Shown here: piece after piece, positions 3,440 to 48,027 of the stretch
How positions within the stretch are numbered: position 1 is the stretch's first letter
Layout: every line of letters begins with the position of its first letter
Assembly (NCBI RefSeq): GCF_008107635.1
Contig: NZ_SDGZ01000010.1
Location: 137,128-201,127 of the forward strand
Reading direction: 5' to 3'
Length of the DNA stretch: 64,000 nucleotides
From: Weissella muntiaci
GTDB taxonomy: Bacteria; Bacillota; Bacilli; Lactobacillales; Lactobacillaceae
Position numbers and translations under genes: made by a program
The notes under the pieces: model-generated
Told to the model about the DNA's origin: nothing
Database searches by the model: none
What the model saw: only the letters and a program-made list of their open reading frames with translations

Positions 3440-3700
3440 AAAAAAAAAAAACGCCCTCAAGTAAGTTTCTAACTTACTTGAGGGCGAGTTCATTCGCGGT
3501 TCCACCTCAGTTTTCGCCAATCGTTACCAACTGGCTCTCACGATCTTATCTAAAAGACCAGCTGTTAACGGTTGCTAACCGGACTTACGTTACATAAGTC
3601 GAATATCATGGGTGTGGTTCATTTAGTGGCTTGATCGCTTCACAACTTCTGCGCGACTCTCTGGGCAAACCTACTAAACTACTCGTCCAATCTATCTTTA
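3440..3700 (-). ncRNA. T-box leader of the amino-acid ABC operon
   Basis: Minus-strand leader with the conserved T-box AGGTGGAACCGCG (3507-3495) and a terminator whose arms GCCCTCAAGTAAGTT pair perfectly over 15 bp (3453-3485), followed by twelve T. Upstream lie an AGTA motif and an AGAGAG distal element of stem I. The specifier is best read as CAC (3616-3614, followed by ACC), a histidine codon; this assignment is by eye. Uncharged tRNA would pair with it and with the T-box to prevent termination. Confidence 0.87.
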
Positions 3701-3738
3701 TTTATATTATGGTTAACTCTACGATCATCTATACCAAA

Positions 3739-11330: not shown

Positions 11331-12101
11331 TTAATATCGGTTAAAATACGTTAGCAACTCAGTGATTGTCAACGCCTGCTTTGTAGCGCCTTGTACATCG
11401 AGTGCAATCTTACCTGCATCAATTATGATCAATCGATCACCAAACTCAAGCGCATCTTCCAAATTGTGCGTAATCATTAATGCAGTTAGCTTTTCCGCCT
11501 TGATACTTTGGTCAGTCACTGCCATCAACTGGGCAGATGTCTTCGGATCAAGTGCAGCCGTATGTTCATCTAATAACAACAACTCTGGCTGGCTTTGTGT
11601 AGCCATTAAAAATGATAATGCCTGTCGTTGCCCACCAGATAAATCCCCGGTTGCCATCTCCAAACGACTATCTAAACCATTCCCCATCTTGGCGGCCAAA
11701 GTTGCAAACTCAGCCATTTTGGTTTTGGTTAAATTTCGATTACGGAGTCGTCGTGACTTTCCACGTCGCTCAGCTAACAGTAAATTTTCTGCAACCGTCA
11801 TTCTGGGAGCAGTACCGAGTTTCGGATCTTGGAACACTCGTGATAGATACTTCGTTCGGTCTATTTCAGACATATGGGTAACATCAAGCTCACCTAAGTA
11901 GATTTGCCCCGAAGTCAAAGCCAACGATCCTGCAATCACGTTAAAGAGCGTTGACTTACCAGCACCATTTGAACCTAATACAGTTACAAAATCACCCGGT
12001 TGGAGTTCAAGTGAAACGTGATCTAAAATATTCTTTTCATTTGAACTGCCAGCATTGACTGTCACTGTAGCATCAACTAGCCGTACCGCCGTTTTAGTCA
12101 T
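11331..12101 (-). CDS. trpZ: ABC transporter ATPase, predicted tryptophan importer
   Basis: 256 residues. Walker A LGSNGAGKSTLFNVIAGSL near residue 45, Q-loop VFQDPKLGTAP, signature LSGGQRQALSFLMA, Walker B LLLLDEHTAALDP and H-loop MITHNLEDAL are complete. The true start is ATG 12101 with GGGGG 9 nt upstream; the longer frame begins at TTG. Its start overlaps the permease stop by 8 nt, indicating coupling. ATPase partner of the TrpX/TrpY-type proteins encoded upstream. Function inferred from the leader and family. Confidence 0.9.
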   Translation of the reverse strand: MTKTAVRLVDATVTVNAGSSNEKNILDHVSLELQPGDFVTVLGSNGAGKSTLFNVIAGSLALTSGQIYLGELDVTHMSEIDRTKYLSRVFQDPKLGTAPRMTVAENLLLAERRGKSRRLRNRNLTKTKMAEFATLAAKMGNGLDSRLEMATGDLSGGQRQALSFLMATQSQPELLLLDEHTAALDPKTSAQLMAVTDQSIKAEKLTALMITHNLEDALEFGDRLIIIDAGKIALDVQGATKQALTITELLTYFNRY

Positions 12102-12996
12102 GACTTGCAACCCCCTTCTTGATCACTTTTTCCAAATGTAACGAACGTCGTAATTGTGGCGAAATTAATGCAAGTCCTAGGATCACAGCACTAAATAGAT
12201 TTAAATCGTTTGCCGAGAATCCGATTGCCAAAACAATAACTAGGACAAAGCGGTATAAGATCGATCCAATAATAATGGTCACCAGCCGATTGGTTAGCGA
12301 AAGTTCACCACCATAACTTACCTCACCAATAATAATTGATGCCAATGCAACCACGATAATCCCAATTCCCATATTGACGTCCGCAAAACCATTATTTTGT
12401 GCCACTAGTGAGCCACCAAAAGCAATCAGCGCGTTTGACAACATCAATCCTAAGATTGTCATGCGATCTGTATTAATCCCTAACGATCGTGCCATAGTTT
12501 CATTATCGCCAGTAACGATAAATGCCTGGCCTAATTCAGTCTGTAGGAAGATAGCAATCATTCCTGTAATGATCGCTATCACAATCATCCCCACCAACAC
12601 TGCCGACATATTGGCTGATAACTTATTCAGACCCATTCCAGAAAAAATCGTTGTTACACCAAGCAATGAACGATTCGCCTGCCCCATAATCCGGAGATTA
12701 ACTGAGTAAATCGCCGTCATCGTTAAAATACCAGCTAATAAGATTGGCACACGTCCTTTTGTATAAAGCAATCCAGTTACCAAACCGGCTAAGGCACCCG
12801 CTAAAGCCGCAATCAAACTCGCTAATAATGGATTCATACCTTGGGCGATCAAGGTTACTCCCGTGGCGGCTCCTAATGGAAAGGTACCTTCAACAGTCAT
12901 ATCTGGAAAGTCCAAAATTCTAAAGGTAAGAAATAAGCCAATTCCTAAAGTTGCCCATAGTAATCCCTGACCAATTGCCGAAATAATTAATTGCAT
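12094..12996 (-). CDS. trpY: ABC transporter permease, predicted tryptophan importer
   Basis: Membrane subunit of the BPD_transp_2 (LivH-like) family, 300 residues with about eight or nine hydrophobic segments. Recognisable parts: LFLTFRILDFPDMTVEGTFPL near the N-terminus, GLVTGLLYTKGRVPILLAGILT, and TELGQAFIVTGDNETMARSLGI, the cytoplasmic loop contacting the ATPase. It directly follows trpX (1-nt gap). Known members of this TrpX-TrpY-TrpZ group were predicted as tryptophan transporters from Trp-specific regulation in Firmicutes, and the leader here supports that. Confidence 0.9.
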   Translation of the reverse strand: MQLIISAIGQGLLWATLGIGLFLTFRILDFPDMTVEGTFPLGAATGVTLIAQGMNPLLASLIAALAGALAGLVTGLLYTKGRVPILLAGILTMTAIYSVNLRIMGQANRSLLGVTTIFSGMGLNKLSANMSAVLVGMIVIAIITGMIAIFLQTELGQAFIVTGDNETMARSLGINTDRMTILGLMLSNALIAFGGSLVAQNNGFADVNMGIGIIVVALASIIIGEVSYGGELSLTNRLVTIIIGSILYRFVLVIVLAIGFSANDLNLFSAVILGLALISPQLRRSLHLEKVIKKGVASHD

Positions 12997-12997
12997 C

Positions 12998-13984
12998 CTA
13001 TTCTCCTACGATCTTAGCTTTGCTATAAGCACTTGGAATTGTCAAACCAAACTTATCCGCCTTAGCCTTATTAATAATTAAATTACCGCTCTTCATAAAT
13101 TGTACTGGCAAATCAGCTGGCTTCTTGCCCTTCAAAACTTGGGCAATCATCTTTCCTGTTTTGATTCCAATTTCCTTTTGATTAATTGACTCTGCGGCTA
13201 CCCCACCTTGCTCAACCATCGTATCAACGGTTGGGAAGACTGGCACATTTGCATTATCCGTATTCTTAATCAACGTCGTAAAGGCACCAGCAATTGTGTT
13301 ATCGGTCGGTACAAATACCGCCTGTACATTATTATTGTTTACCATTTGCAGAGATGTTTGATTCAAGTCGTTTGACGAGGCAATTGTATATTCCTTAACT
13401 TCAATCCCAGCCGCTTTGGCCAAAGTTGCCATCTTCTTAGCCTCAGTGGTTGCTGAATCATCTGACGAAGTATAGATAATACCCAACGTCTTAAGATTTG
13501 GCATAAAGGCTTGCATCATCTTTAATTGCGAAGCCAACGGAGCTTGATCTGAAACCCCTGTCACATTACCGCCAGGATGGCTATATGACTTAACTAACTT
13601 CGCGCCAATTGGATTAGTTGATGCAGAGAAAACAACTGGTTTGCTTGTAACTGTGTTTGCAACTGCAATTGCCGCAGGCGTTGCAATACCAACCGATACA
13701 TCAGCCTTTTCATTTGCAAACTTGGTTGACATTGTTTTCAAATTACTCTGATCTGCTTGGGCATTTTGGAAATCAATCTTAACATTCTTGCCAACCTTGT
13801 ACCCAGAATCATTTAGACCTTCTTTGATTCCGCTATAGATTTGATCCAATGCGGGATGTGACATAAATTGCAAAACCCCTACCGTCGGCACTTTCGCCTT
13901 CTGGGTTTGCACACCGGAATAAATTCCGGCCCCAATTAATACTGCTGCAATTACTGATAAAGTTCCTACAATACGCTTGTCCAT
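12998..13984 (-). CDS. trpX: ABC transporter substrate-binding protein, predicted tryptophan binder
   Basis: ABC_sub_bind family (TrpX-like) protein, 328 residues. An N-terminal basic start and hydrophobic helix (IVGTLSVIAAVLIGAGIYS, about residues 4-22) without lipobox Cys suggest membrane anchoring. Family features: VGVLQFMSHPALDQIYSGIKEGL, IATPAAIAVANTV, VFSASTNPIGAKLV, PGGNVTGVSD, VPTDNTIAGAF and EIGIKTGKMIAQVL. AGGAG precedes ATG 13984. First structural gene after the leader-peptide attenuator; the terminator ends only ~40 nt before its start. Confidence 0.92.
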   Translation of the reverse strand: MDKRIVGTLSVIAAVLIGAGIYSGVQTQKAKVPTVGVLQFMSHPALDQIYSGIKEGLNDSGYKVGKNVKIDFQNAQADQSNLKTMSTKFANEKADVSVGIATPAAIAVANTVTSKPVVFSASTNPIGAKLVKSYSHPGGNVTGVSDQAPLASQLKMMQAFMPNLKTLGIIYTSSDDSATTEAKKMATLAKAAGIEVKEYTIASSNDLNQTSLQMVNNNNVQAVFVPTDNTIAGAFTTLIKNTDNANVPVFPTVDTMVEQGGVAAESINQKEIGIKTGKMIAQVLKGKKPADLPVQFMKSGNLIINKAKADKFGLTIPSAYSKAKIVGE

Positions 13985-14021: not shown

Positions 14022-14056
14022 AAAATAAAAAGGTCTGCACGCATTCCGTGCAGACC
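14022..14056 (-). terminator. attenuator terminator upstream of trpX
   Basis: Perfect 10-bp stem GGTCTGCACG / CGTGCAGACC with a five-base loop (14056-14032), then TTTTTATTTT. It lies between the leader peptide and trpX, so transcripts reaching trpX must read through it. Confidence 0.9.
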
Positions 14057-14080
14057 CCTCAAGGAAATCCTAATGTCAGC

Positions 14081-14126
14081 ACAGATTCGATATGCGAGCT
14101 CTAAAAAGAGCACGTACCGAATCTGT
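14081..14126 (-). ncRNA. attenuator hairpin (central stem) of the trp leader
   Basis: Perfect 9-bp stem ACAGATTCG / CGAATCTGT enclosing a smaller GCTC / GAGC hairpin. It contains CGTGC, which could instead pair with GCACG of the terminator 5' arm, giving a possible antiterminator. An earlier stem pairs TTTTCACA within the leader peptide (14179-14172) with TGTGAAAA (14135-14128). Confidence 0.7.
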
Positions 14127-14146
14127 TTTTTCACAGTCCGGCCGTG

Positions 14147-14191
14147 TTAACGGCGCCACCAACTATTTGATTGTGAAAATTGCTTAATCAT
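14147..14191 (-). CDS. Trp leader peptide MIKQFSQSNSWWRR
   Basis: A 14-codon open frame with a strong GAGGAG ribosome site (14203-14198) six bases before its ATG. It holds two adjacent Trp codons (TGG TGG, 14161-14156), then two Arg codons and TAA. It is ~45 nt downstream of a near-consensus promoter and is followed by alternative hairpins and an intrinsic terminator. This is the layout of a ribosome-dependent amino-acid attenuator: a ribosome stalled at the Trp codons would disrupt the first stem and allow transcription of trpXYZ. The mechanism is inference; the sequence elements are directly seen. Too short for most gene callers. Confidence 0.85.
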   Translation of the reverse strand: MIKQFSQSNSWWRR

Positions 14192-14236
14192 AAGTTTCTC
14201 CTCGATTAATCTTTAGTAATAATATCTATGGTCTAA

Positions 14237-14265
14237 ATCATATATCCTCGTTTAGCCCTTGTCAA
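14237..14265 (-). promoter_or_regulatory. promoter of the trp leader-trpXYZ operon
   Basis: Consensus TTGACA (14265-14260), 17-nt spacer, TATGAT (14242-14237) on the minus strand, immediately after the nrdF stop. Confidence 0.88.
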
Positions 14266-47788: not shown

Positions 47789-48027
47789 AAAAAAGCCCCA
47801 ATTATCCACTTGGATAATCAGGGCGACTAAAGTCACGGTACCACCTGAATTGAATAATTAAATATTCATCTCATTGTGAACTTAACGCGTCCAACACGGT
47901 GTAGCTACTCAATTCACCAACACAGCCCATTAGCTACCTTCCACCTCAATCATCCGTACATTCCCACCAACCATGTACTCGCTGAAGAATCAAATTAAGG
48001 GTACTCTCTAATGCAATGCTACGCATT
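47789..48027 (-). ncRNA. T-box leader of valS
   Basis: Conserved AGGTGGTACCG (47846-47836) and terminator GCCCTGATTATCC / GGATAATTGGGGC (47824-47795) followed by six T. A GTA triplet at 47937-47935 in stem I is a possible Val specifier; this is by eye. The AGAGAGTACC distal element is also present. Confidence 0.92.

Follow-up and report, generated by a model that had tools for sequence, protein, structure and literature searches.

Attenuation of transcription by a stalled ribosome follows a classical logic, and in the trp and his attenuators of E. coli the stalled ribosome chooses the antiterminator over the terminator, as we also propose here. His-run attenuators have been described in Firmicutes, Terrisporobacter among them (Naville and Gautheret, 2010, PMC2965389; Ashniev et al., 2022, PMC9413887), and a T-box is placed before trpX in S. 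suis (PMC9382623). Another described RNA of direct concern is the trpB motif (Rfam RF04312, SRC-39-1), for which the passages of Narunsky et al. (2024, PMC11109978) drawn on here give more than 900 members, name Fusobacteria and offer a classification as a strong riboswitch candidate with unknown ligand; the same passages leave room for a protein factor or a classic attenuator. In the open-access literature, the term 'trpB motif' was found in no paper other than this one.

The window examined here, a stretch of 64,000 nucleotides from Weissella muntiaci, carries on its minus strand a leader element that we regard, at a probability of about 0.88 and on the strength of sequence comparison and modelled folding, as a ribosome-mediated transcription attenuator sensing charged tRNA-Trp, one whose relatives have exchangeable codons, and not as a riboswitch. 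Reading along the minus strand, it opens with a promoter-like TTGACA-17-TATGAT (14265-14237; 11 of 12 consensus bases), one of three promoter-like sites on both strands against a mean of 1.0 in shuffled sequence. This is followed by a GAGGAG Shine-Dalgarno site (14203-14198) and a frame of 14 codons running from ATG to TAA (MIKQFSQSNSWWRR with the stop; 14191-14147), which ends in NSWWRR and holds two adjacent TGG codons (14161-14156) as the putative Trp sensor. Within the frame, TTTTCACA (14179-14172) is complementary to TGTGAAAA (14135-14128) past the stop, with most of this stem lying beyond the region covered by our alignment. Further along are the two arms of a central hairpin (14126-14117 and 14090-14081) and, as identified by folding and a terminator scan, an intrinsic terminator with a 5' arm at 14056-14046, a 3' arm at 14041-14032 (segment 6 of the scheme below) and a T tract at 14031-14022. 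There is one such terminator-like site, against a shuffled mean of 0.1, and 37 bases separate its end from the trpX ATG at 13984. Folding of 14236-14024 gave -76.3 kcal/mol with a z-score of -7.97, and none of 200 shuffles was as good. All of these parts, from the promoter to the T tract some 40 nucleotides ahead of trpX, had been named in an earlier sequence-only reading of this DNA, and each is present as described.

Comparison across relatives resolves, at the level of sequence, a switch in which an antiterminating set of helices (2:3 and 4:5) is predicted to exclude a terminating one (1:4', 3:4 and 5:6). Segment 2 (CCGGACTGT; 14141-14133) is assigned by covariation of 2:3 as the partner of segment 3 in the antiterminating state, segment 3 itself (ACAGATTCGG; 14126-14117) is the 5' arm of the central hairpin and can pair in the alignment with either 2 or 4, segment 4 with 4' (TCGAATCTGTGCTGAC; 14090-14075) takes part in both pairing sets as the partner of 3 or 5, and segment 5, the 5' arm of the terminator (14055-14045), is placed by covariation of 4:5. 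In alignment A1, which comprises 52 sequences, the terminator set is paired in 92.8% of 1297 cells, with double changes in 20 of 25 pairs, as compared with 30-42% pairing in slid controls, and the antiterminator set is paired in 92.2% of 756 cells, with double changes in 10 of 15 pairs, as compared with 29-36%. The last codons of the leader frame themselves participate in helix 1:4', and a CAA or CAG in place of CGG is accompanied by a change in its partner (A1 columns 23:109 and 24:108). In a second alignment with Trp and non-Trp leaders (A2), the antiterminator pairs mostly stay the same and show little covariation, the double changes of this set being reached by 46 of 500 shuffles. Outside the main set, the complementarity of frame end and segment 4 was tried on 27 leaders, three of which were dropped for having no recognisable segment 4; of 11 pairs, the remaining 24 leaders formed 10.5 and the shuffled controls 9.1. 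Single leaders are weak as evidence, since only for 13 of the 24 did no more than 10 of 200 shuffles do as well. In the window, as read on A1, all ten aligned 3:4 pairs form and helix 1:4' is weak (four of six aligned pairs), and the antiterminator joins segment 5 to 14085-14075 with one U-U mismatch, a pairing judged by eye. The sequence-only reading had guessed at CGTGC in the central hairpin pairing with GCACG of the terminator; covariation instead gives 4:5 as the conserved antiterminator. Its reading as a ribosome-dependent Trp attenuator is supported by the comparison and the folding models, but the enteric trp architecture that it had invoked gives way to six competing segments. A six-segment chain is closer to the his than to the trp attenuator of E. 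coli.

Among relatives, we considered a family that we take to be Lactobacillaceae, in which 185 of 201 genomes have a TrpX match at E <= 0.001, the weaker ones possibly being paralogues. Upstream regions of trpX were examined at 110 loci (30 from the first TrpX search and 80 from a longer list); as the genomes are related, such counts are not independent of one another. In 104 of the 110, trpX is preceded by a short frame that has Trp close to its end, a figure made up of 100 found by a regular expression demanding Trp-bearing tails and four recovered later (L084, L089, L098 and L101), with no shuffle control. The structure, searched with a covariance model built from 52 regions, is matched at E <= 0.01 in 102 of the 110 loci, including 50 of the 58 outside the training set. 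The alignment for conserved Trp codons that the sequence-only reading had called for thus came out in its favour. Two loci (L012 and L032) have the Trp frame and no structure match, and six (L002, L034, L035, L100, L102 and L106) have neither. In six of the seven other genus members, the frame ends in NxWWR plus one residue, and WW is common to all six; the seventh, L002, has no frame. Outside the genus, the tails are mostly WQSR, and most relatives have a single Trp codon as compared with two in the window. Among 92 distinct leaders, the tail is fixed at the level of codons, with CAA for 77 of 78 Gln, AGC for 68 of 70 Ser and AAT for all 49 Asn at position -3. Loss of the frame with retention of the terminator, which the sequence-only reading held to speak against itself, is seen at L002, whereas frame and structure are kept in most relatives. 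L002 belongs to the nearest TrpX relative (73% identity); it keeps a terminator-like stem before trpX, has no Trp frame and is matched by the model at only 13.5 bits, and its attenuator was probably lost. As a separate observation, two members of the genus have a THF riboswitch upstream of trpX (L003 481-636 and L007 477-585).

The identity of trpX (12998-13984, minus strand), proposed earlier from sequence, is upheld by NCBIfam NF041285 (440.1 bits against a cut-off of 390) as a Trp ABC transporter substrate-binding protein. It is followed on the same strand by a trpY-like ABC permease (12094-12996; position and weak ABC-permease family matches) and a trpZ-like ABC ATPase (11331-12110; position and ABC-ATPase family matches), the names trpY and trpZ being our inference, and nrdF lies upstream. 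The genome of the window has two TrpX matches but just one strong attenuator match. Two other leaders in the window had been called T-boxes, and both are seen by Rfam, one at 47816-48025 (minus strand) with 113 bits and the other at 3477-3704 (minus strand) with 85.6 bits, which is under the cut-off of 93. The Rfam scan gave no match to T-box RF00230 at 14265-14022 and none to the amino-acid leader families in the window leader.

The RF04312 model gives the window a score of 32.0 bits (E 0.01 over 401 bases), below the gathering cut-off of 59, which none of the 30 trpX loci scanned reaches either. The window RNA is therefore called related to RF04312 by sequence and not a member by Rfam's rule, since relatives elsewhere do pass. 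Model R1, trained on Trp leaders only, matches at E <= 0.01 in 177 of 295 genomes of the order, and we took 20 of its loci, of which one is a second copy (L164) and the other 19 lie in different families or elsewhere in the order. Nine of these 20 exceed the RF04312 cut-off and all 20 have a Trp frame, with the caveat that R1 itself contains the Trp tail. Because the window branch matches RF04312 over cut-off at none of its 30 scanned loci, its link to the motif rests on the alignment, on sub-cut-off scores (32 bits for the window, 47 for L197 and L199) and on L164, where a second attenuator copy with a WQSR leader (about 443-950) scores 86.6 bits. Shortly past the terminator of this second copy lie a group II intron and a reverse-transcriptase-like frame. 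Moreover, R1 matches a Tyr/Phe copy at L153 (38.5 bits, E 3.3e-6), and Rfam RF02863, 'Enterococcus sRNA 2410', falls on this Tyr/Phe form at L153 (3460-3637) and at L211, L213 and L217, the last three being among ten non-Trp loci scanned. The related RNAs include RF04312, the trpB motif, and, with Tyr/Phe codons, RF02863.

Are frames also found before RNAs that were gathered by the Rfam model itself? Searches of 398 and 299 genomes, in overlapping samples, gave 19 distinct RF04312 matches, nine of them over cut-off and 15 at 46 bits or more, and a sensor frame precedes every one of these 15 (12 Trp, one Phe, one His and one Tyr). Here, the frames were not selected for, because the Rfam model begins downstream of them. 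Below 46 bits, one of four matches has a sensor frame (L200, 38.2 bits), retained because of its FYFSYFR. Three matches of the RF04312 searches (L187, L188 and L201) and seven model matches (L206, L207, L208, L209, L210, L244 and L245) were dropped for having no convincing frame upstream; L205 was retained, its FYFSYFR tail being readable in the sequence though a scan based on Shine-Dalgarno sites gave no frame, and the leaders of L222 (a short contig, position guessed) and L240 (a match beginning inside the model) are unreadable. A further model, R2, built from 28 sequences of which four are non-Trp, matched 21 of 79 genomes in the family of genome G810, with up to four matches each. In a phylum-wide search of 329 genomes, seven had matches and two had convincing leaders (G208 and G203), and in the order of G873 convincing leaders were found in one of five. 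Genome contigs were also searched with a pattern made up of just segments 3 and 4, which yielded 24 loci in Clostridium, Terrisporobacter, Romboutsia, Tepidibacter, Vulcanibacillus, Eubacterium multiforme and Clostridiaceae, and 23 of these have a sensor frame led by a Shine-Dalgarno site, as compared with a mean of 0.80 and at most three in shuffled upstream DNA; the 24th (L262) has a His run and no such start. Since some leaders are identical between them (L223/L258, L219/L254, L220/L253 and L196/L268), the pattern-locus and model-search sets overlap.

More conspicuously, the sensor codons change with the gene downstream. Trp leaders stand before trpX and before trpB (L158 and L162, over the curated cut-off). 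In the G810 family, HHH leaders precede a hisZ-type gene (L223) and hisS (L230 and L233, both over the curated cut-off), FFFSFFR- or YYLSYYR-like leaders precede SNF-type transporters, and LLLLANLR-like leaders precede another set of these transporters; a YYFSYFS leader before a BrnQ carrier (L214, over the curated cut-off) is a doubtful fit of codon and gene. In G208, YYFSYFR is found before an aroE-type gene (L211; domain model, over the curated cut-off). The FNSQFR-like leaders of L224, L231, L232 and L235 lie directly before ABC permeases and not before a binding protein; the permeases of this group are BPD_transp_2 in both cases scanned, and the leaders perhaps sense Phe. Among the 19 pattern loci with a gene in view, ten His-run leaders precede seven hisZ-type genes and three binding proteins, and SNF transporters follow the other nine. 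Gene families were checked on a subset (five for SNF) and the remainder named by eye, and for three hisZ-type proteins and the binding protein of L248 the best match lay below the cut-off. On a tree of 29 SNF transporters, the Leu and Tyr leaders each fall on one starred branch, and the three codon labels, assigned by hand from the repeated residue, require two changes, which is the minimum, as compared with 12.8 in shuffles, although the 29 cases are not independent because near relatives cluster. Different codons also coexist: in L153, trpXYZ follows an LNSWQNWRR leader and an aroE-like gene further on follows LNNYYFSYFR, and eight genomes of the G810 family combine two codon types, each at a gene of its own, examples being G1184 (Phe and Tyr), G1153 (Phe and Leu) and G1155 (His and Leu). 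That Trp, His, Tyr, Phe and Leu codons change with the downstream gene argues for one attenuator family with exchangeable codons and not for a riboswitch. We consider it likely, if less firmly so than our reading of the window element, that the trpB motif and sRNA 2410 both belong to a single attenuator scaffold spread across the Bacillota, the specificity of which was re-set several times by exchange of a few codons (Trp, His, Tyr, Phe and Leu). As these codons or their neighbours also pair with 4', such swaps would have gone together with compensating changes in the RNA, and copies with different codons would serve different genes within a genome.

In the proposed mechanism, scarcity of charged tRNA-Trp would make the ribosome wait at a Trp codon, where it would cover segment 1 and leave segment 2 free; 2 would then pair with 3, and 4 with 5, and RNA polymerase would continue into trpXYZ. 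With plentiful Trp, the ribosome would reach the stop codon and cover segment 2, and 3:4 and the terminator would form. Folding of alternative structures, the check proposed at the outset, was done with leaders cut after segment 5, from which everything through the 12th base after the first A-site base had been removed. For the 52 A1 leaders, it favours 4:5 with a ribosome at the Trp codon (P(4:5) 0.68, over 0.5 in 37, and P(3:4) 0.27) and 3:4 with one placed four codons past Trp, the commonest stop position (P(4:5) 0.29, over 0.5 in 13, and P(3:4) 0.83, over 0.5 in 47). Without a ribosome, the values are 0.40 and 0.39. In the window, P(4:5) is 0.76 and P(3:4) 0.16 when the first Trp codon occupies the A site; when the stop occupies it, P(4:5) is still 0.74 though P(3:4) rises to 0.68, and one codon past the stop they are 0.45 and 0.93. 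Among 25 A2 leaders (21 Trp and four other), P(4:5) is 0.70 five codons before the stop (over 0.5 in 19) and 0.18 at the stop (over 0.5 in four), and without a ribosome P(4:5) is 0.36 and P(3:4) only 0.07. Of the 24 pattern-selected loci, 22 were folded (L261 and L262 were unusable), with segment 5 assigned under a TAG constraint. At the best sensor codon, P(4:5) exceeds 0.5 in ten of 11 Tyr/Phe leaders, in the one Leu leader and in two of ten His leaders, and at the stop codon it does so in none of the 22. In these models, the ribosome geometry fits the Trp, Tyr, Phe and Leu leaders; for the His leaders, either equilibrium folding is insufficient or the scheme differs. The untranslated state is a mix in folding, not clearly terminating, and together with the His branch and the stop-codon state of the window it is poorly explained by equilibrium folding.

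The published favoured reading of the trpB motif, a metabolite riboswitch whose aptamer, formed around P1, would bind a ligand related to amino acids and so act on the terminator, draws on strong conservation and covariation, a terminator and metabolic genes downstream; the motif was classed as a strong candidate in the passages cited (PMC11109978). We find it unlikely for the present element, given the sensor-codon frame before all 15 of the better RF04312 matches, the variation of the codons with the gene, and the fact that codons and competing helices account for the conserved parts; moreover, a classic attenuator is left possible in those same passages. Less probable still is a leader of the TnaC type, in which nascent-peptide arrest would sense free tryptophan through a conserved peptide tail. 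The frequent WQSR tail and the single Trp of most leaders would suit such arrest, but the tail is fixed at the codon level and forms part of 1:4', and related leaders carry unrelated tails with runs of His, Tyr, Phe or Leu. Against arrest of this kind also speaks that an uptake operon needs a response of the opposite sign to that of tna. Finally, control of trpXYZ by a T-box or another tRNA-binding leader, with the short frame incidental, is scarcely credible here, for although a T-box precedes trpX in five of eight loci of another family of the order, which we take to be Streptococcaceae, none over the Rfam cut-off was found in the window leader or in any of the 30 trpX loci scanned out of the 110, so that the T-box consensus once weighed as an alternative did not emerge, and the frames recur with fitting codons.

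Ribosome-mediated attenuation would give an orphan riboswitch candidate from the literature, with its more than 900 reported members, a mechanism that can be tested, and it would newly interpret an RNA that Rfam lists as an sRNA. A few leader codons would predict the amino acid sensed, and hence the likely substrate, of many transporters, and the codon-swapped attenuators would form a natural series on one RNA scaffold. In lactic acid bacteria, translation-coupled Trp control is indicated where T-box control might be expected. Our search of the open-access literature brought up no previous account of a Trp leader ahead of trpXYZ in the order, no other codon forms on this scaffold or frame before the trpB motif, no link between the Trp, His, Tyr/Phe and Leu forms, and no published account of 'sRNA 2410'.

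Set beside known systems, the attenuator proposed here differs from the trp and his attenuators of E. coli in usually having one Trp codon and in using the closing codons of its frame as a switch segment (1:4'), and the window has no match to the Rfam amino-acid leader families. T-box RF00230 serves the same gene and signal in other families, but reads the tRNA directly and without translation. The His attenuators of Firmicutes are alike in their His-run leader peptide and in the terminator and antiterminator before his genes, and the parts of those studies cited here do not connect them with forms that carry Trp, Tyr, Phe or Leu codons, or with the trpB motif (PMC2965389; PMC9413887). Enterococcus sRNA 2410 (RF02863) is filed by Rfam as an sRNA gene, whereas in our loci it has a YYFSYFR-like frame on one side and aroE-like or transporter genes on the other. 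The trpB motif shares with the present element its P1, which corresponds to 3:4, an antiterminator in the 3' shoulder of that helix, a terminator, and trpB or an ABC transporter downstream. It differs in having been presented, in the passages cited, as a riboswitch candidate without a leader frame (PMC11109978), and the Rfam model starts past that frame.
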